From positions 466,293 to 530,292 of the forward strand of contig JBDKSB010000012.1 in the NCBI GenBank assembly GCA_039683095.1: a DNA stretch of 64,000 nt. The letters run 5' to 3'. Numbering within the stretch: the first letter of the stretch is position 1; every line of letters starts with the position of its first letter. The notes under the pieces are model-generated. The model had not been told where the DNA came from. It ran no database searches and saw nothing but the letters and a program-made list of their open reading frames with translations. The stretch comes from Acidobacteriota bacterium. GTDB lineage: Bacteria > Acidobacteriota > Aminicenantia > Aminicenantales > Saccharicenantaceae. Position numbers and translations under genes: made by a program. Positions 24,090 to 37,071 of the stretch are shown piece by piece.

Positions 24090-26006
24090 CTACCCTTCGA
24101 TGAGCGGGCGGTTCTTCGGGTGGGTGATCCGGAATTTCAGGGTGATCTCCTTCTTCTCCTGGGGCCCGAGCGTGACCGGCCAGGCCAGGATGCCGGTCCG
24201 GGCCTCGTCCTCGTCGAGGACCGTCTTCACCGGCTCGGGGACGGCCTGGAGGATGTCGATGGTCACGTCCTTGCTCGTCGTCACGGGCACCTGGTCCTTG
24301 ACCAGCAAGGCCCGGGGCGCGCGCGTCAGGTTCTCCAGCGTGATGGCGATCTCGTAGGTCAGCTGGACCTTCTTGCCGACGAGCCCCGTCTCGGTCCGCG
24401 TCTTGCTCACCTGCCGCCAACGGACCTTGACGCCGGGCACGTCGCCGACGGCCAGGGCGAAGCGGTCGTTGGGGGCGACGAACGGCACCTCGGCCGTGGA
24501 GATGTAATCGTTGTCGTAGAACAGGCTCGCCCGTCCGGGCAGGAGGAGGAATTCCGCGGCGTTGGTGATCCGGGCATTCAGGGAGACCGTCTCGGCCAGC
24601 TTGGGTACCGTCAGGAACTCCTTCTCCACGGGCAGGGTCTCCACGGCGATGGTCACCTTCTTCTTCTCCCGGGAGCTCGGAACGTTTTGCCGTTGCTTGA
24701 TCTCGAAGACCGTGGCCATGGTCCGGTCGGCCGCTTCGGCCGTCTCGATCGCCGCCTCCTCCTCGGGCACCGGAGCCTCCTCGGCGGCGACGAGATCATT
24801 GTAGCTGACCTTGGCGGCCACGGAGATCTGCTCCTCGAGCGCGGCCAGCGGGAGGGCAAGATCGAGGCTGGCGCGACGGCCGGGCCGGACCTCGATGCCG
24901 TCGCGCAGGACCGAGTTGAAGCCCTGGAGCTCCGCCCGGAGGTTGTAGGTCCCCGGCTTGAGATTGACGAAGAGGACTCGGCCGCGCGCGTCGCTTGTCA
25001 GGCTCCTGCGGAAAGCTCCGCCAGTCACGGTCACGGTCGCGCCGGAGAGCGGCGTGCCCTCCGGATCGGCGACGAAACAGGAGATGGCCCCCGTCTCGCC
25101 GCTCTCGGTATCGACCCGCCAGGCCTCCAGCCGCTGCGGCCGGCTCTGAAGAGCCGGCTCGGCCGTGGACAGGAAGAGCTGGACGCTGTTCCAGTCCTCT
25201 CCCGTCGCCTGCGTGACCAGGGCCTGGTAGGTCAGCGTCGCTTCGTCCTTCTGAGAGTCTATCCTGAGATCGTAGGACGGTGACCAGGTGACGCCCGGAA
25301 CGACATAGGAAAGCGAGAGTTTCTCCGAACCGGCCCTGGTCACTTCGACGTCGACGAGGACGGCCTTCCGCTGCCGGACGAGCAGGCTGGCCTGCTGGTC
25401 GAGGTCGTGCTGGGCCGCATCCCGTTTCATCTCCAGCGCGTCTTTTTCGGCGTTCAGCCGGCGCGTCTGCTCCAGGATCTTCGGCAGCTGGACGTCGATA
25501 AAATCCAGCCGCCGCTGCCATTCGGTCGTGTTCCCGGCCTGGCCGGCGGCGGCTGCGGACTTGTCGTCGCCGGGCTTCAGGACGCTCACGGCCTTGACGA
25601 GATCGGCCTCTTTGGCCAGGACGTCCAGGCGGTCGGCGATCTCAAGCAGCTGGGCCGCCAGGTCGTCCCTTTTCTTCTTCAGGTCCTTGAGCGCGGCCTG
25701 GGAGCTCTCCGAACCGAGCGCCTGCTGGATCCGGATGTCGAGGATCCGGGCCCCGGCCGTGCCGCGGCCGGACACACGGACCGATTCCTCCAGCAACTGG
25801 GCCGGGAGGTCCCGGAACTCCCAGGTATGGGGGCCGGGAACGACGTCCCCGGTCATGGTGCGGGTTATCATGCACCTGTTCTGATAGATCGTCACGGACT
25901 CGATCGTCGAGGCGCCGGAAACGTCCGCGGCCGCCTGTCCGGCTCCGGACGCCGCCGGGGCCGCCAACGCCAGGCCCAAGCCCACGATCAGCAGGGTCTT
26001 TTTCAT
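24090..26006 (-). CDS. Secreted DUF4139 (MuiA-like) protein with an inserted carboxypeptidase-regulatory-like domain
   Basis: This 638-residue exported protein has a signal peptide (residues 1-22). The N-terminal part matches the DUF4140 entry domain (IESVTIYQNRCMITRTM), followed by coiled coil (~105-215, repeated LKDLKKKRDDLAAQL-type heptads). The DUF4139 beta region follows (LSYVVPGVTWSPSYDLRI; YQALVTQATGEDWNSVQLFLSTA). A separate beta-sandwich domain is inserted at ~310-380, with the carboxypeptidase regulatory pattern CFVADPEGTPLSGATVTVTGG and GTYNLRAELQGF. The DUF4139 body resumes after it. MuiA-type proteins affect mucoidy in some bacteria, but their molecular role is unclear. It is co-transcribed with a serpin. 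Confidence 0.8.
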   Translation of the reverse strand: MKKTLLIVGLGLALAAPAASGAGQAAADVSGASTIESVTIYQNRCMITRTMTGDVVPGPHTWEFRDLPAQLLEESVRVSGRGTAGARILDIRIQQALGSESSQAALKDLKKKRDDLAAQLLEIADRLDVLAKEADLVKAVSVLKPGDDKSAAAAGQAGNTTEWQRRLDFIDVQLPKILEQTRRLNAEKDALEMKRDAAQHDLDQQASLLVRQRKAVLVDVEVTRAGSEKLSLSYVVPGVTWSPSYDLRIDSQKDEATLTYQALVTQATGEDWNSVQLFLSTAEPALQSRPQRLEAWRVDTESGETGAISCFVADPEGTPLSGATVTVTGGAFRRSLTSDARGRVLFVNLKPGTYNLRAELQGFNSVLRDGIEVRPGRRASLDLALPLAALEEQISVAAKVSYNDLVAAEEAPVPEEEAAIETAEAADRTMATVFEIKQRQNVPSSREKKKVTIAVETLPVEKEFLTVPKLAETVSLNARITNAAEFLLLPGRASLFYDNDYISTAEVPFVAPNDRFALAVGDVPGVKVRWRQVSKTRTETGLVGKKVQLTYEIAITLENLTRAPRALLVKDQVPVTTSKDVTIDILQAVPEPVKTVLDEDEARTGILAWPVTLGPQEKKEITLKFRITHPKNRPLIEG

Positions 26007-27992: not shown

Positions 27993-28280
27993 CTAGCTGC
28001 TCTTCTTCAGGAAGATCTCGCAGGTCTCGAAATCGATCTCCCAATGGGCGCCGGCCTCGCCCTTCCACTTGTACCGCCGGCTCGTCTCGTCCCACCACCT
28101 CTGGAACCTCGTCGCCGTCTCGCCCATGTCCTGGACGAGACGGTCGTAGAGCGGGTGCTCCGGGCTCTGGACGCTCTTGAAGAGCTCCGCGAGGCCGTTC
28201 TTGCGCTCGAACAGGCGCTTGATCTCGTCCCGCTCCGCCTCGGTGACCTTGCCAACGGGCCGGCCTTTCGGGTTCTTCAT
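27993..28280 (-). CDS. CXXX-repeat peptide modification system protein (small associated protein)
   Basis: This 95-residue protein looks like the small protein family named 'CXXX repeat peptide modification system protein'. Visible blocks are VGKVTEAERDEIKRLFERK, LYDRLVQDMGETATRFQRWW and HWEIDFETCEIFLKK. It is mostly helical and has no export signal. The ATG at 28280 follows the maturase stop by 16 bases, and upstream in-frame codons lie inside the maturase gene. As the last gene of the cluster it may bind the precursor or bridge the two maturases; that is inference. The match is from memory of the family and needs an HMM search. Confidence 0.72.
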   Translation of the reverse strand: MKNPKGRPVGKVTEAERDEIKRLFERKNGLAELFKSVQSPEHPLYDRLVQDMGETATRFQRWWDETSRRYKWKGEAGAHWEIDFETCEIFLKKSS

Positions 28281-28296
28281 CGGGACTCCCTCCTCG

Positions 28297-29289
28297 TCAG
28301 AGCTTCTTGAAATCGGCGATGGACATCTTCTTTTCCACGGCGACGTCGAACGGATCCTGGTAGGCGATCTCCGGGATGTCGGCCAGGCCCTCCCCGGAGC
28401 CGGACTCCCGGAGCCGGCCGAGATAGAGCCGGGAGGCCTCCCGTTCGACGTGGGCCAGCCGGCACTGCTCGGCCGAGGGCGTGTTGAGCTCAAGGGTCAG
28501 GGCCCGGTTCAGGAAAACGCACCGCTTGCACTGATAGGCGTCGCAGATCCGGCAGATCGGGGCGCACTTGAGCTCGAGGAGGCGGCGGTTGCCGATGCCG
28601 ATCTCGCCGCGGATCTCGCCCAGGCTTTCGTGCGGATCGGCGTAATAGAAGGCCGGGCAGAGATAGAGCCGGCCGTTCGGCCCCACGGTCAGGTGGGCCA
28701 GGCCGGCCTCGCAGTTGTTCATCCGGCCAAGCGCCAGCCGGTCGGTCAGGACGTTCAGCTCCGGCGGGTCCGGCCGGGCCGCGAGCTTCAGGACCTCGGG
28801 CAGGATCTTCTCGAGCTGGCGCCGGTATTCGGCGTATTCGGCCTCGCCGCAGCCGGCGACGTCGGCCAGGACCACGTTGATCCGCTTGGCCCGGGGCAGG
28901 AGCCGCTTGAGGGCCGCGGCCAGGAGCGGCAGGTCGGCCCGCCGCAGCCGGAGGATGAAGTTCTCGCCGCGGAGGCCGGCCAGATCGGCGGCGCCGGGGA
29001 TCTCGGAGGACTCGACGACCAGGATGGCCCCCGGATGGCCCGACCGGGCCGCGAAAGGCACGATCTTGACGTGATCGACGCTCTCGACGAGCTTGTCGTA
29101 GGCCCGCCCCAGCCTGCGGCCGGGATAGAGGAAGTTGACCTTGAGGTTGTTCTTCAGGGCGAAGAGGACGGCCGCCTCGAGCCGGTCCAGGGGGATCATG
29201 TCCGCGCCGCCCCGCCGGCGGCCGCCTGCTTCGTAGTGGCAGAACGAGGTCGCGTCCCGGGCCAGGACGACCAGGAGGTACTTCAGCAT
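28297..29289 (-). CDS. CXXX repeat peptide maturase (SPASM-like Cys cluster, no CX3CX2C motif)
   Basis: This 330-residue cytoplasmic protein starts MLKYLLVVLARDATSFCHYE, as in the family named 'CXXX repeat peptide maturase'. The N-terminal half has a radical-SAM-like alpha/beta pattern (ALKNNLKVNFLYPG, HVKIVPFAA) but no CX3CX2C cluster for the catalytic iron-sulfur centre. The C-terminal part has SPASM-like cysteines: NNCEAG, LYLCPAFYY, CAPICRICDAYQCKRC. It may thus bind auxiliary clusters but not cleave SAM itself. The ATG at 29289 overlaps the radical SAM gene by seven bases; the longer open frame is spurious. It probably works together with the radical SAM enzyme on the Cys-repeat precursors. 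Confidence 0.75.
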   Translation of the reverse strand: MLKYLLVVLARDATSFCHYEAGGRRRGGADMIPLDRLEAAVLFALKNNLKVNFLYPGRRLGRAYDKLVESVDHVKIVPFAARSGHPGAILVVESSEIPGAADLAGLRGENFILRLRRADLPLLAAALKRLLPRAKRINVVLADVAGCGEAEYAEYRRQLEKILPEVLKLAARPDPPELNVLTDRLALGRMNNCEAGLAHLTVGPNGRLYLCPAFYYADPHESLGEIRGEIGIGNRRLLELKCAPICRICDAYQCKRCVFLNRALTLELNTPSAEQCRLAHVEREASRLYLGRLRESGSGEGLADIPEIAYQDPFDVAVEKKMSIADFKKL

Positions 29290-30491
29290 GGGCCCGCCCC
29301 CTCGCCGCCCCGGGGCTCGGCCCGCAGGTCCCGGCCGAGCTTGCGGCCGAGCCTGTTCCAGAAATAGTTGTTGGCCCGGACCCGGGCCTTGTGCATCCTG
29401 CAGATGGCGACCGACCTCTGGAAGATCGTCCGAGTGTCGGCGAAGTCGTAGTTGGCGCCCTGGCACCAGGCGCACCCGGTGGCGACGCCGCAGTCGAGGC
29501 ACTCCTCCGGGCTCTGGCTGACCATGTCCAGGGTCAGGAAGGGCCTGAGCCTGTTGCGGTCGAGGCCGTCGAGGCAATTGCCGATCGTCAGGGCCGGGCG
29601 CTTCTGGAGCGAGAAGCCGAGGAAGCGGACGCAGGGATAGAAGTTCCCCCGGTGATCGACGGCCAGCATGCGGCCGGCCCCGCACCAGTTGTTGTTGTCG
29701 ACGTACGGGGCGCCGATGGTCTTGGAGAAGAAAGAGCAGGACCGGGTCTCGTAGAGCCGGCGGTCGATCGTCTCGTCGGCCAGGGCCATAAGCTGCGCTT
29801 CGAAGCGCTCGTCGTCGCCGGGCTTCCAGACGTCCTCGAAGACGACGTTGATATTGACCTCCTTGATGCCCAAGCCCCAGAGGTGCAGGACGCTCTCCTT
29901 GATGCGGGGGATGTCGTCGCTCGAGACGGTGACCTTGGTCGAGGACTTGGGGAACTGCTCCAGCCAGCGGGGGATGTTCCGGGCGACGTCGTCGTAGGAG
30001 CCCCGGCCGTCGGGATAGACCCGCTGGAGATCGTGCTTGGCCCGCGTGCCGTCGACGGTGATCTGGACGCTCAGGTGGGACGAGTTCTTGGCGATGTAGC
30101 GCTGGACCCGCGCGTCGTTGTAGAGGAGGCCGTTGGTCGAGAAGCTGAACCGGTAGCGCTCGAACCAGGGGTGATCGAGCTCGTAGGCCCGGACCTTGAA
30201 ATAATCGCAGATGCGGTCGATGAGCTCGACCTCGAGGAAGGGCTCGCCGCCGATGAAGTCCCAGACGACGGAGGGTTCGGTGACGAGGTCCCGGGCCCCG
30301 AGCAGGTAGTCGATGGCCCGCCGGGCGACGTCGAACTTGAGCCGGCCGGCCTTGTTCTTGCCGACCATGTAGCAGTAGCGGCAGCGGAGCTGGCAGTCCT
30401 CGGTGACGACGAAGGTGACGTTCTTGGAGCGGCTGGCCTCCCAGGACCTGTCCGTCTCGATCTTGACCGGATCGTTCTTGACGCTGGACAC
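29283..30491 (-). CDS. Radical SAM/SPASM peptide maturase, CXXX-repeat target type
   Basis: This 402-residue enzyme has the SAM-cluster motif CQLRCRYCY (Cys33, 37, 40), GGEPF at 81-85 and a C-terminal SPASM region. The latter begins at WCGAGRMLAVDHRGNFYPC and ends with ECLDCGVATGCAWC and VAICRMHK. Such enzymes make thioether or other carbon cross-links on ribosomal peptides. The GTG start shares one base with the stop of the upstream precursor (TAGTG), indicating tight coupling. An ATG at 30527 in the same frame would overlap the precursor by 37 bases and is less likely. Neighbouring precursors with CXXX repeats point to the substrate. Confidence 0.87.
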   Translation of the reverse strand: MSSVKNDPVKIETDRSWEASRSKNVTFVVTEDCQLRCRYCYMVGKNKAGRLKFDVARRAIDYLLGARDLVTEPSVVWDFIGGEPFLEVELIDRICDYFKVRAYELDHPWFERYRFSFSTNGLLYNDARVQRYIAKNSSHLSVQITVDGTRAKHDLQRVYPDGRGSYDDVARNIPRWLEQFPKSSTKVTVSSDDIPRIKESVLHLWGLGIKEVNINVVFEDVWKPGDDERFEAQLMALADETIDRRLYETRSCSFFSKTIGAPYVDNNNWCGAGRMLAVDHRGNFYPCVRFLGFSLQKRPALTIGNCLDGLDRNRLRPFLTLDMVSQSPEECLDCGVATGCAWCQGANYDFADTRTIFQRSVAICRMHKARVRANNYFWNRLGRKLGRDLRAEPRGGEGAGPC

Positions 30492-30844
30492 TAGTACTGG
30501 TTCTGGCCTTTGCAGAAGCCCTCGCAATTATGGTTGCACGTCGTGGCGCAATCGTTCTTGCAGCCGCCGGAGCAATTGCTGTTGCAGCCCTTGGCGCAGG
30601 CGTTCTTGCAGCCGCCCGTGCAGTCGGCCTCGCAGGTGTCGGCGCAGACCCGGCGGCAGCTGCCGATGCAGGTCTGGCCGCAATCCTGGGGCGCCCGGGA
30701 AGCGCGCGGACCGGCGCCCTGGGCCGAAAGGCGGGAGGCCCGGCCCAGGCCGATGACGGCGATCGTCGGGAGCGCGGCGCCCGTCACGGTCCGCAGGAAC
30801 GCCCGGCGGCCGATCTTCTTGCCGTTCTTCGCGTCGTTCGCCAT
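30491..30844 (-). CDS. CXXX-repeat RiPP precursor A (15 Cys at exact four-residue spacing)
   Basis: This 117-residue precursor has a leader with a twin-arginine-like motif (GRRAFLR, residues 12-18) and a hydrophobic stretch AALPTIAVIGLG (23-34), then a spacer ending RASRAPQ. The core runs from Cys55 to Cys111: 15 cysteines, one every fourth residue, with Gly, Asn, Lys, Ala and Thr between, and a short tail KGQNQY. The ATG at 30844 follows the precursor B stop by five bases. The leader resembles that of precursor B, so both are probably handled by the same enzymes. The Tat-like signal suggests the modified peptide is exported folded. Confidence 0.85.
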   Translation of the reverse strand: MANDAKNGKKIGRRAFLRTVTGAALPTIAVIGLGRASRLSAQGAGPRASRAPQDCGQTCIGSCRRVCADTCEADCTGGCKNACAKGCNSNCSGGCKNDCATTCNHNCEGFCKGQNQY

Positions 30845-30849
30845 CGGGA

Positions 30850-31254
30850 TCACCAGGCCCCGCCGGAGCAGCCCTTCTCGCAGCTCCCCTTGCAGGTCCC
30901 TTCGCACGTGCCGTTGCAGCCGCCCTCGCAGGTGTACTTGCAGGAGCCCTCGCAGGTCAGGAAGCAGGCGTCCTTGCAGGTGCCCAGGCACTCGCCTTCG
31001 CAGCCGCGGCAGCCGTTCTCGCAGGTGACGATGCAGTCGTTCGGTCCCTTGGAGTAGCCTTTGTCGAAGTCCCCGGCTTTCGCGGCCGGCTTGGCCGCCA
31101 GGCGGCCCGGCCGTGTCAGGGCCAGGACGGCGATCGTCGGGATGGCCGCCTTGGCCACGGCGCCGACGAAATCGCGCCGCTTCATAGTCTTTTCCCCGGC
31201 GGACTGGGCGTCTGCTTCGGCCTTCGGAGAGGGGCGATCATTGCGCTTGGACAT
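30850..31254 (-). CDS. CXXX-repeat RiPP precursor B (15 Cys, one phase break)
   Basis: This 134-residue precursor has a leader with KRRDFVGAVAK (25-35) and AAIPTIAVLAL (36-46), matching precursor A. The core spans Cys74 to Cys129: 15 cysteines every four residues except between Cys82 and Cys85, where the spacing drops to three (CRGC). The residues between are mostly Glu/Lys-Gly-Thr/Ser. It ends SGGAW. The ATG at 31254 has GGAG upstream. A later ATG at 31185 (MKRRDF) would give a shorter leader equal in layout to A and is also possible. It is the first gene of the cluster. Confidence 0.85.
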   Translation of the reverse strand: MSKRNDRPSPKAEADAQSAGEKTMKRRDFVGAVAKAAIPTIAVLALTRPGRLAAKPAAKAGDFDKGYSKGPNDCIVTCENGCRGCEGECLGTCKDACFLTCEGSCKYTCEGGCNGTCEGTCKGSCEKGCSGGAW

Positions 31255-33135: not shown

Positions 33136-33399
33136 ATGAAGAAGAAGTTTACGGAGGCGCAGATCGTCTTTGCCCTGCGGCAGGCAGAGAGCGGGACGCC
33201 GACCGCGGAGATCGTGCGGAAGATGGAGATCTCGGAAGTCACGTTCTATCGCTGGAAGAAAAAGTACGCGGGGATGGGCGTGGCGGAGCTTCGGCGTCTG
33301 AAGCAGCTCGAGGATGAGAACCGGCGGCTGAAGCGGCTGGTGGCCGATCTGACCCTCGACAAGCAGATGCTCCAGGATGCCTTATCAAAAAAGTTCTGA
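33136..33399 (+). CDS. IS3-family transposase OrfA (helix-turn-helix)
   Basis: This 87-residue DNA-binding subunit has a helix-turn-helix (EAQIVFALRQAESG...EVTFYRWKKKYAG) and a leucine-zipper-like helix (LKQLEDENRRLKRLVADLTLD). It ends LSKKF before TGA at 33397. An A-rich slip site (TCAAAAAAG, 33385-33393) precedes the stop, as in IS3 elements that make an OrfAB fusion by -1 frameshift. The frame reached by that slip runs on as IKKVLKPAEERE and then loses similarity. Confidence 0.85.
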   Translation: MKKKFTEAQIVFALRQAESGTPTAEIVRKMEISEVTFYRWKKKYAGMGVAELRRLKQLEDENRRLKRLVADLTLDKQMLQDALSKKF

Positions 33400-33447
33400 A
33401 GCCCGCCGAGGAGCGGGAGCACAGCCGACCCTCAGACGGCGCTTCGG

Positions 33448-34194
33448 ATGCGGCTGAGGGATCTCGCGATGTCGCGGGTCGGCTACGGATATCGGCGGCT
33501 TCAAGTCCTTATCGAGCGTGAAGGCTGGCATGTAAATCACAAGCGGGTTTATCGCTTGTACCGTGAGGAAGGCTTGGCCATGAGGCGGAGACCTCCCAGG
33601 CGGCGCAAGGCCTGTCTGAAGAGGGTCTTGCGGCCTCTGGCCGCGGAAAAGAACGAGTGCTGGAGCATGGACTTCATGTCCGACGAGCTCTTTGACGGCC
33701 GGCGGATCCGGCTCTTAACGATAGTGGACAATCATACCCGTGAAAGCCTGGCCATCCATGTGGGCCAGAGGATCCGCGGCTGCGAGGTGGTCGAGGTCTT
33801 GGAACGGGTCATGAGGGAACACGGCCGGCCGCGGTCGATACGGGTGGACAACGGTCCGGAATTTATCTCTAAGGACGTCGATCTCTGGGCTTACTGGAAC
33901 CATGTCACGTTGGACTTCTCCCGTCCGGGGAAGCCGACGGACAACGCTTATATCGAGTCGTTCAACGGGCGGTTCCGGCAGGAATGCCTTAATGAGCACT
34001 GGTTCCTGAGCTTGGATGACGCCCAGGACAAGGTTGAAGCTTGGCGGAGGGACTACAACGAGGAACGGCCTCACAGCGCTCTCGGCAACGCGACTCCCGA
34101 GCAATACGCGGCTCGGGCCGAGCCTCAAAACGAGCTGCCCGCGCTGGGCATCGAAGCGGACAAAAAAGAACTTGCTTATCCAAAAAGTTGCTGA
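33448..34194 (+). pseudogene. IS3-family transposase OrfB, 5'-truncated (DDE catalytic domain intact)
   Basis: This 248-residue product has the integrase core: MDFM (first Asp), VDNGPEF (second Asp) and the Glu in NAYIESFNGRFRQECL. It starts at MRLRDLAMSRVGYGYRRL, where family members normally have about 40 more residues (a helix-turn-helix_21 stretch linked to LKPA). In this copy that stretch seems deleted, and the downstream part lies in the orfA frame instead of the -1 frame. Slippage would thus not join OrfA to this domain. It could only be made from an internal start, so I call it inactive. Confidence 0.65.
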
Positions 34195-34332: not shown

Positions 34333-37071
34333 ATGACAAAGCAAGAGGCACAGGAAAGGCTTAGCGTACTGGTTGGCTATTTCGAGAGAAATTCTCGCCA
34401 TATCAAAGCCAATTTTACGGAAGAGGATACAAAGCAAAAGCTAATTCAACCGTTCTTCAGCATTTTAGGATGGGATTTCACTAAAGACCAAGATGTACGT
34501 TATGAAAGATCCGGCGGAAAGCAATCAAGGGTCGATTATGTGTTCGGTAACCGACACTTTTATTTGGAGGCAAAGGCTAGTAATGCTGATTCAGTTGATA
34601 ACGTTTTGCAGGCAAACTTCTATGCTTACAATAAGAGTCGTTTTTGTGTTCTGACAGATTTTGAAACCTTCAAATTAATAAAACCAATAAGGCCGACAAA
34701 AAGCAAACCACAGCTCGCAACCGTCGAGACTTTTGACCTTACCTACAGAGACTACCTTTCCCGGTTTGATCAGATTTGGGATACCTTTTCTAAAGAAGCA
34801 GTCCTGATTAATGCGTCATTGGAGGATCTGTTAGAAGAAGAAAAGAAGAGGCGAAAGTTTTTTACCATAGACGAGGACTTCTTAACCGAACTCGAAGACT
34901 GGCGAAAGGAACTTGCCCTCGATATTTATCTCAATAACAAGAAAATCGTCGGCGCCGACGGGCAGCTTTTAACAGAATTCACTCAGAGAATATTGGACAG
35001 AATCATCTTTAGTAAGTTCTTAGAGGACCGCGGAATAGAAGAAAAAGTATTGCGAGATTTAATTGAAACAAAAGATATCTATCCCAAAATGGTCTTGAGG
35101 TTTTCAGCGGTCGGCAGAGCTTACAACGGGCTGATTTACAATCCTCATACTGTAGATGGACTTTCCGTTGGTGATGACGTACTAAACCGAATACTAAGTA
35201 GGTTATATGACACTCCTCATCATCAGTCCTTTTATAATTTTGGACATATTCCTATCGAGATATTGGGGAGTATCTATGAGAGATTTCTTGGGAAGGTTCT
35301 TAAGATCAGGCCGGAAAATCATAGGCGTCTGGTGCAGGTTGTCGAAAAACCCGAAGTAGCCAGGGCAAAGGGTGTTTATTACACGCCTGATTTCATTGTC
35401 GATTATGTGGTTAAAAGTACTGTTGCCAAGATATTTAATAAAAGACGAGCGCTTGAGAAGGTTTCTAATATCAAGATTGTTGATATATCTTGCGGGAGTG
35501 GAAGTTTTTTAGTTGGAGCCTATTCTTACCTCCTGAGCTGGTATCTAAATTATTACATTAAGCATCCTCGTAAGGCACTTTCTGATGGAGCATTATTAGA
35601 CGGCAAGTTGGTCAAGAGAATCCGTAAAACCATATTGGTAAGGCATATCTATGGAGTGGATATTGACCCCCAAGCTTGCGAAGTAGCGCAGATGAGCCTT
35701 TATCTAAAGATGCTTGAGGATTGCCCTGATATTCAACACGAAATCAAATTGAGCGATCTTATTCTGCCCGATATGAAAAATAATATCAGATGCGGAAATA
35801 GCTTAATAGAACCAGAGTATTTTCTTGATAGATTATTTACCGACCCTGAGGAAATGAAGCAACTGAGTGCTTTTGATTGGAGGAAATATTTTCCGGAAGG
35901 ATTTGATTGTGTGATCGGCAATCCTCCTTATATTGATTCGGAGACAATGACAAAGGAATACCCCTTATTGCGGAGAGCTATCCAAGATACATATCTAATG
36001 ACAAAGGGCAATTGGGATATCTATATTGCCTTTTTTGAAAGAGGCCTTGGTTTACTGAAATCAGGGGGATTCCTTTCCTTCATAACTCCCGATAAGTGGA
36101 TCTCTAAGCCGTTTGGAGACAAGTTAAGGATAGACACCATAAACTCAATCTATAGCATTTTTAACGCAGGCCGGGCCGTATTTAAGAGAGCAAAAGTCGA
36201 TGCAATAGTGACGACATTTTCAAAACAATATCAAGATTCAATCAAGCTATATGCTTATGAGGGCACAGAGATAACCCTGAAACGTACCATCAAGAAAGCA
36301 TCATTGAATCCCCCCTATGCTTATGACGGCCTATTTTCCGGTTTTATCGACTTGTTCAAGAAAATGGAGGCTCGTTCAGGAAGATTGTCTGATCTTGGCG
36401 TCTGTGAAAACGCTTGCGCAACGTCGGATTGCTATAAACTAAAAAGTTACATAGAAGAGAAGTCCTCAAGTATAAGAAAAGGGGACAGCCTGAAGATTAT
36501 TAATACAGGCACCATTGGGAAATATGTATCAAAATGGAGCCAAGAGAGGATGGTATATCTTGGGAATAGATACTTGAAGCCAGTAGTCCAAAGAGAAAGG
36601 TTTCTGAGAGAATTCCCAAATTCCTATGGTCAAAAATCTATTAAACCCAAGCTAATAATGAAGGGGCTAAATCTGTTGGACGCTTGCCTAGACATTAACG
36701 GGGATATAATTCCCGGCAAAGCGACATTGATTATTCCTTCGGACAATCCCGAGACGCTAAAACTCCTTCTCGCTATAATTAACAGCAATCTACTTTTTTT
36801 ATATTTGAAAGAAAAATATCCTGCATCTAGCTACAATCAAGGCACTACTTTTACAAAAAAAATGATCAATGACATTCCAATACCGCAAATCACTGAATCC
36901 ATAAAGAAAGAGATAATCTCGCTAGTAGATAAAGTCCTTCAAATGAGACAACAAAGGATAGACGCCGATACGGAAGTATTTGAGCGGGCAATTAACGCCC
37001 ATATTTATAAAATATACGGTTTGACTGACGACGAAGTTAAAACCGTAGAAACGTGGGTTGCCGAAAGGTAA
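34333..37071 (+). CDS. Type IIG restriction-modification enzyme (fused endonuclease, N6-adenine methylase and specificity domain)
   Basis: This 912-residue protein has an N-terminal PD-(D/E)XK nuclease site (VDYVFGN then FYLEAKA: Asp68, Glu79, Lys81). An N6-methylase core follows, with motif I DISCGSGSFLVGA near residue 383 and motif IV NPPY at about 530-533. The C-terminal ~250 residues resemble a TaqI/Eco57I-type target-recognition domain. A single protein would both cut unmethylated and methylate self DNA. Codon use is AT-rich compared with surrounding genes, so it was probably acquired. Target site unknown. It converges on the three-gene operon at 37098-39191. Confidence 0.86.
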   Translation: MTKQEAQERLSVLVGYFERNSRHIKANFTEEDTKQKLIQPFFSILGWDFTKDQDVRYERSGGKQSRVDYVFGNRHFYLEAKASNADSVDNVLQANFYAYNKSRFCVLTDFETFKLIKPIRPTKSKPQLATVETFDLTYRDYLSRFDQIWDTFSKEAVLINASLEDLLEEEKKRRKFFTIDEDFLTELEDWRKELALDIYLNNKKIVGADGQLLTEFTQRILDRIIFSKFLEDRGIEEKVLRDLIETKDIYPKMVLRFSAVGRAYNGLIYNPHTVDGLSVGDDVLNRILSRLYDTPHHQSFYNFGHIPIEILGSIYERFLGKVLKIRPENHRRLVQVVEKPEVARAKGVYYTPDFIVDYVVKSTVAKIFNKRRALEKVSNIKIVDISCGSGSFLVGAYSYLLSWYLNYYIKHPRKALSDGALLDGKLVKRIRKTILVRHIYGVDIDPQACEVAQMSLYLKMLEDCPDIQHEIKLSDLILPDMKNNIRCGNSLIEPEYFLDRLFTDPEEMKQLSAFDWRKYFPEGFDCVIGNPPYIDSETMTKEYPLLRRAIQDTYLMTKGNWDIYIAFFERGLGLLKSGGFLSFITPDKWISKPFGDKLRIDTINSIYSIFNAGRAVFKRAKVDAIVTTFSKQYQDSIKLYAYEGTEITLKRTIKKASLNPPYAYDGLFSGFIDLFKKMEARSGRLSDLGVCENACATSDCYKLKSYIEEKSSSIRKGDSLKIINTGTIGKYVSKWSQERMVYLGNRYLKPVVQRERFLREFPNSYGQKSIKPKLIMKGLNLLDACLDINGDIIPGKATLIIPSDNPETLKLLLAIINSNLLFLYLKEKYPASSYNQGTTFTKKMINDIPIPQITESIKKEIISLVDKVLQMRQQRIDADTEVFERAINAHIYKIYGLTDDEVKTVETWVAER

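Follow-up and report, generated by a model that had tools for sequence, protein, structure and literature searches.

Twin-arginine-type leaders in a CXXX-repeat RiPP cluster of an Acidobacteriota bacterium

The leaders of ribosomally synthesized and post-translationally modified peptides (RiPPs) are usually cut off, and the products are exported by ABC transporters. One RiPP-like gene set, the CXXX-repeat system, is described in NCBIfam by TIGR04114, TIGR04115, TIGR04116, TIGR04117 and TIGR04119, all of which are computational definitions only. The same gene set occurs in the 64,000-nucleotide stretch of an Acidobacteriota genome that is termed the window (GCA_039683095.1, contig JBDKSB010000012.1). 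In this stretch, a minus-strand block at 31254-27993 was read as five packed open reading frames (ORFs), which encode two precursors, a radical S-adenosylmethionine (SAM)/SPASM peptide maturase (rSAM), a second maturase, and a small protein referred to here as the helper. The whole is probably best explained as a RiPP cluster in which the leader of the precursors also serves as a twin-arginine translocation (Tat) signal peptide.

Among the characterised systems, PapB of the PapB/PapA ranthipeptide system represents the radical SAM family nearest to the rSAM after TIGR04115, and multiple Cys thioethers from position i to i+4 are formed there. In contrast to the window precursors, in which i+4 is another Cys, PapB needs Asp/Glu acceptors; it is also a single enzyme with no described pseudo-partner (PMC9413430). 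The SCIFF maturase CteB (PDB 5wgg, 5why) is the best structural match of the second maturase and the best PDB sequence match of the rSAM, but only CteB carries ~90 extra N-terminal residues, and the second maturase lacks the CX3CX2C motif. Bufferins and other MNIO-modified RiPPs with signal peptides share Cys-containing precursors with a signal-peptide leader, whereas their route is Sec rather than Tat, their enzyme an MNIO rather than a radical SAM protein, and no dedicated translocase has been reported for them (PMC12452194). As late as 2025, a signal peptide in a RiPP precursor was described as an original feature, and then for the Sec route (PMC12452194). Searches of the open-access literature found no paper on the TIGR04114 to TIGR04119 accessions, and none that combines a CXXX repeat with radical SAM, or a RiPP with radical SAM and twin-arginine; a Bacteroidales RiPP mining paper mentions neither CXXX nor TatC (PMC10352776). 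No description of the Tat route, of the tat genes or of the pseudoenzyme nature of TIGR04119 was found there either, an absence that is weak evidence, and the NCBIfam short name tSAM_targ_Cxxx may indicate that the family authors had noticed some of this. The initial annotation of this DNA knew of no described product, and none was found in the literature searched.

Family membership was judged against the NCBIfam curated cut-offs. The rSAM, taken to be the catalytic subunit (29283..30491, on the minus strand like all features of the cluster; 402 aa), scores 576 bits against TIGR04115 (cut-off 350), the second maturase (28297..29289; 330 aa) 210 bits against TIGR04119 (cut-off 150), and the helper (27993..28280; 95 aa) 91 bits against TIGR04116 (cut-off 50), and therefore the family is one already defined computationally. 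Precursor 1 (30850..31254; 134 aa) and precursor 2 (30491..30844; 117 aa), each with 15 Cys, lie narrowly above the repeat model TIGR04114 with 21.8 and 20.8 bits, respectively (cut-off 20). Both miss the cut-off of 50 for TIGR04117, the Syntroph_Cxxx paralog family (41.9 and 42.9 bits), and are related to this family without being filed as its members. The GTG start of the rSAM has one base (G) in common with the TAG stop of precursor 2, and the reading frame of the second maturase overlaps the end of the rSAM by 7 bases. This arrangement, down to the 95-aa protein, had been given in the initial annotation, and every ORF was found in place; the three CXXX-repeat families proposed there for rSAM, second maturase and helper were borne out by the hidden Markov model (HMM) scores above. 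The description of the locus as a complete RiPP-type operon is supported. In gene content the cluster is unremarkable for a family known from computation, and its rSAM is the single TIGR04115 enzyme above cut-off in the genome.

The leaders carry a feature that the first reading missed and that was added by comparison of relatives. Tat-like signals are situated at 31093..31185 in precursor 1 (MKRRDFVGAVAKAAIPTIAVLALTRPGRLAA) and at 30719..30811 in precursor 2 (GRRAFLRTVTGAALPTIAVIGLGRASRLSAQ), and their motif is conserved in the relatives. The leaders, KRRDFVGAVAKAAIPTIAVLALTRPGRLAA in precursor 1 and GRRAFLRTVTGAALPTIAVIGLGRASRLSAQ in precursor 2, contain motifs of the S/T-R-R-x-F-L-K type (KRRDFV and GRRAFLR) together with a hydrophobic region that is followed by Arg. 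Scanning GTDB genomes yielded 144 relatives, of which 80 loci were kept for comparison. By record name these are mostly Bacteroidales, with further records from Fibrobacteres, Deltaproteobacteria, Chlorobi, Alphaproteobacteria and Phycisphaerales, some labels of metagenome-assembled genomes (MAGs) among them possibly being wrong. The leader survey covered 123 precursor candidates from 78 loci, of which 118 are intact and 5 are cut by contig ends; the search patterns used found no precursor at locus L073. An RR pair followed by F/L and a hydrophobic residue is present in 114 of the 118 intact precursors. Around the RR of these 114, position -1 is S or N in 92, position +2 is F in 109, position +3 is F in 94, and position +4 is K or R in 104, which gives a consensus S/N-R-R-x-F-F/L-K, in its simplest form S-R-R-x-F-F-K, that resembles the published S/T-R-R-x-F-L-K. 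In 102/114, a Pro with L/I/V before it stands at a fixed distance from RR. Many RR-type leaders have AxA after the hydrophobic stretch, and an isolated Cys in a lipobox-like context, well before the repeats, was picked up in 28 RR-type precursors by a regular expression, a few of these being doubtful. On this comparison, the precursor leaders look like Tat signal peptides.

The genome context independently agrees with this assignment. Clustering of the neighbour genes of 77 loci revealed one further widespread gene pair, tatA-tatC, which follows the helper immediately and shares its strand; HMMs were then built from the tatA and tatC clusters, and sample members were confirmed by Pfam. Of the 63 Bacteroidales-type loci with a helper and enough downstream room, 53 have tatC on the strand of the helper and no more than 1.2 kb downstream of it, and 54 have tatA. 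Each of the 51 cluster-bearing genomes tested has TatC, even where the operon lacks tat, compared with 207/247 genomes in a sample of the order Bacteroidales, in which the 7 genomes with TIGR04119 above cut-off are all among the TatC-bearing ones. The operon TatC is the sole TatC match in 15 of the 51 genomes, one of which is a titled strain and not a MAG (Hoylesella loescheii An865, L048). In the window genome, tatA adjoins tatC elsewhere, at C1:117656-118643. A Tat route with a dedicated translocase, as these gene orders suggest, would be undescribed as far as the open literature shows.

Four loci from Deltaproteobacteria and Chlorobi records (L011, L025, L027 and L028) depart from this pattern. 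Their short precursors have 5-6 Cys and no RR, the helper and tat genes are absent, and an ABC exporter is located ~1 kb after the rSAM. Both maturases are kept, and score above the cut-offs in L011, the locus tested. A leader element MA[KR]xx[VL]PxF is also kept; its counterpart in an alignment with the Tat-type leaders is their A-K-x-x-[IL]-P region. Since RR, helper and tat are lost together while the maturases and the Pro element stay, RR appears to go with Tat and helper, and the Pro element with the enzymes. The four loci would then represent a natural swap of Tat for an ABC exporter, and the loss of RR together with the helper seems to be undescribed as far as the open literature shows. 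The precursor of L011, the RR-less one tested, matches no NCBIfam precursor model, and the RR-less precursors may constitute a new family of precursors served by an ABC exporter. The initial annotation had proposed an exported peptide, and export of the product is very probable.

The swap also bears on a different view of the leader, namely that it is a Sec signal, or that RR is an enzyme-recognition motif only, with no role for Tat. Some leaders are indeed hydrophobic enough for Sec, and the RR motif could bind the helper. We nevertheless consider this view very improbable, because tatA-tatC accompanies the operon at the 53 Bacteroidales-type loci counted above, because RR is lost exactly where the ABC exporter replaces tat while the maturases stay, and because the leaders in the window have Arg/Lys after the hydrophobic stretch, which is a Sec-avoidance feature.

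The two maturases are related proteins of unequal equipment. In the rSAM, the CX3CX2C motif (C33-C37-C40; 30372..30395) and GGEP are invariant in the alignment. The nearest PDB sequence is CteB 5wgg (E 2e-29), and the closest characterised radical SAM families by HMM are PapB (E 6.8e-55) and the SCIFF maturase (E 3e-32); the score of 186.6 bits against the PapB-type family NF047865 falls below its cut-off of 340. The second maturase matches the rSAM in profile-profile comparison (E 5e-8), and its predicted structure (pLDDT 92.4) superposes on CteB 5wgg with Z 21.5 and a root-mean-square deviation of 3.1 over 278 residues, well above other entries; the corresponding Foldseek E value is 9e-10. 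Its seven SPASM cysteines (C193, C211, C246, C249, C254, C257 and C276; 28462..28713) are invariant, and the pattern is present in 80/80 homologues. CX3CX2C is found in none of these 80, a single N-terminal C17 remaining, which rules out the protein as a second active radical SAM enzyme. Its sequence and model mark it as a radical SAM pseudoenzyme whose SPASM domain is intact. The name second maturase, as used in the initial annotation, therefore stands with respect to the TIGR04119 match, whereas the absence of CX3CX2C in a CteB fold makes it a pseudoenzyme and not a second active enzyme. The rSAM and its partner may act as a complex, with the partner contributing Fe-S clusters or binding of the peptide; such a pseudo radical SAM partner is undescribed as far as the open literature shows. 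The matches of both proteins begin at CteB residue 92, and both therefore lack the N-terminal part of CteB (~90 residues), which holds its RiPP recognition element (RRE).

We also note that the two proteins are fused in a Phycisphaerales record (L078:695-2995), where they form a protein of 767 aa with each half above its family cut-off. This natural fusion is useful for structural work.

The initial annotation described 15 cysteines in each precursor at four-residue spacing. The counts are correct, and the spacing is strict in the core of precursor 2 (30494..30682; 14 of 14 intervals equal 4). In the core of precursor 1 (30853..31035), 13 intervals equal 4 and the remaining one, at CRGC, is 3. 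A pattern of seven Cys with period 4 has 15 matches in the whole 3.29-Mb genome, all within the two precursor genes, and a reversed control pattern has none in the same genome, so the Cys period is not a matter of chance. The residues between the Cys vary across the repeats of the relatives, X2 being Gly in 41% and X3 S/G/T. Acidic residues are scarce, with 5% E and 3.5% D at X1 and 4.7% D at X3. Residue identity across all loci is slightly higher two CXXX units apart than one unit apart (0.160 vs 0.142 for X1, 0.207 vs 0.183 for X3; ~2-2.5 standard deviations), which is suggestive of an 8-residue repeat unit but not enough to propose one.

Since PapB and the SCIFF maturase make thioethers, and PapB needs Asp/Glu, which most of the repeats do not offer, thioethers or related links to mixed acceptors are expected by analogy; this is the weakest step of the argument. 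Cross-linking at Cys, as put forward in the initial annotation, is consistent with the nearest characterised enzymes, PapB and CteB, and may involve all of the Cys or only some. A strictly PapB-like ranthipeptide, with every Cys linked to a side-chain carbon of Asp/Glu, would agree with PapB as the second-best family for the rSAM and with its action on CX3D/E and tolerance of CXnD with n = 0-6 (PMC9413430). It is nonetheless improbable, as the fourth residue beyond each Cys is again Cys and most relatives contain far too little D/E. Alternatively, the Cys might be free thiols or ligands of a metal, Fe-S or Cu, with the peptide loaded in the cytoplasm, hence the use of Tat, and the radical SAM pair performing another change. 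A register kept by Cys alone, beside variable neighbours, would suit metal binding, Tat frequently transports proteins already loaded with a cofactor (PMC3712460), and bufferins, which are Cys-rich RiPPs with signal peptides, bind copper (PMC12452194). This alternative is unlikely on balance, as the characterised radical SAM families found closest by HMM, PapB and the SCIFF maturase, make thioethers (PMC9413430).

The helper occurs at all complete RR-type loci and at none of the four RR-less ones, a link with the Tat leader that the initial annotation had missed. It has no Pfam match, and its model (pLDDT 91.4) predicts a compact E-H-H-E-E fold. With a best Foldseek E of 0.47 and a best VIA Z of 7.3, its PDB matches stay within the range of common helical arrangements, and assignment to a known fold was ruled out; examined as a candidate RRE fold, it shows the predicted E-H-H-E-E topology and no strong PDB match. 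From its co-occurrence with RR, we infer that this predicted leader-handling protein binds to leaders of the Tat type and presents them to the two maturases; it may also delay export. Tat carries folded proteins, cytoplasmic chaperones can bind Tat signals, and NapD on NapA is a precedent for a chaperone that delays Tat export (PMC3712460). A correlation of the same kind is known for bufferins, in which the type of partner protein correlates with the presence of a Sec signal peptide (PMC12452194). A further suggestion, which we offer tentatively and would not rate as the likelier outcome, is that TIGR04116 proteins are proofreading chaperones of Tat leaders, of a kind not seen before, which couple completed radical cross-linking to Tat export, and that in many Bacteroidales Tat is kept mainly for these peptides, some of them as lipoproteins.

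Several points weigh against a Tat-exported, cross-linked RiPP. The operon in the window has no tat genes of its own, and 10 of the 63 Bacteroidales-type loci lack an adjacent tatC, some of them near contig ends. MAG incompleteness affects the count of genomes in which the operon TatC is the sole one, the four swap loci may reflect one single evolutionary event, and the role of the helper is read from co-occurrence only. Finally, an obligatory cross-link acceptor was sought in the repeat composition of the relatives' precursors and none was found; as the residues beside Cys are not conserved, no such acceptor is visible.

Closest among the public records is a MAG labelled Acidobacteria, whose rSAM is 96% identical and whose gene order is the same. 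The maturase is above cut-off in 4 of the 13 genomes of the window's genus, this one included, and in 0/47 genomes of the same order outside the genus, which makes the cluster an accessory trait there.

Elsewhere in the window, an IS3-type transposase pair, an HTH_Tnp_1 ORF followed by an rve integrase-core ORF, is located at 33136-34194 on the plus strand, ~2 kb upstream of the cluster. A 912-aa Eco57I/MmeI-like restriction-modification methylase (34333-37071, plus strand) stands directly after it. On the other side, 24090-26006 on the minus strand encodes a DUF4139/DUF4140 protein with an inserted carboxypeptidase-regulatory-like domain.

Taken in sequence, the proposed pathway would start with the two CXXX-repeat precursors, present as genes in the window, being made in the cytoplasm. 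The rSAM and its catalytically dead, Fe-S-binding paralogue would then install radical-made links on the Cys repeats, most likely several thioethers per chain, as family and fold suggest. The helper would recognise the leader in place of the missing RRE and may retain the peptide until its modification is complete. The folded, cross-linked peptide would then cross the membrane through TatABC and be cut by signal peptidase or, in some relatives, lipidated, a step that the comparative evidence strongly supports. In the window organism the housekeeping Tat genes would serve; most Bacteroidales relatives carry dedicated tatA-tatC in the operon.

If this is true, an obligate partner that is a pseudo radical SAM protein with its SPASM domain intact would bring a two-protein architecture to the maturases, and exit through Tat would give a handle on the site of action of the product and raise the question of how export waits for modification. 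The pathway would also explain the purpose of the second, or sole, Tat system of many gut Bacteroidales, and a RiPP family leaving the cell by Tat, often with its own tatA-tatC, would span Acidobacteria, Bacteroidales and others.

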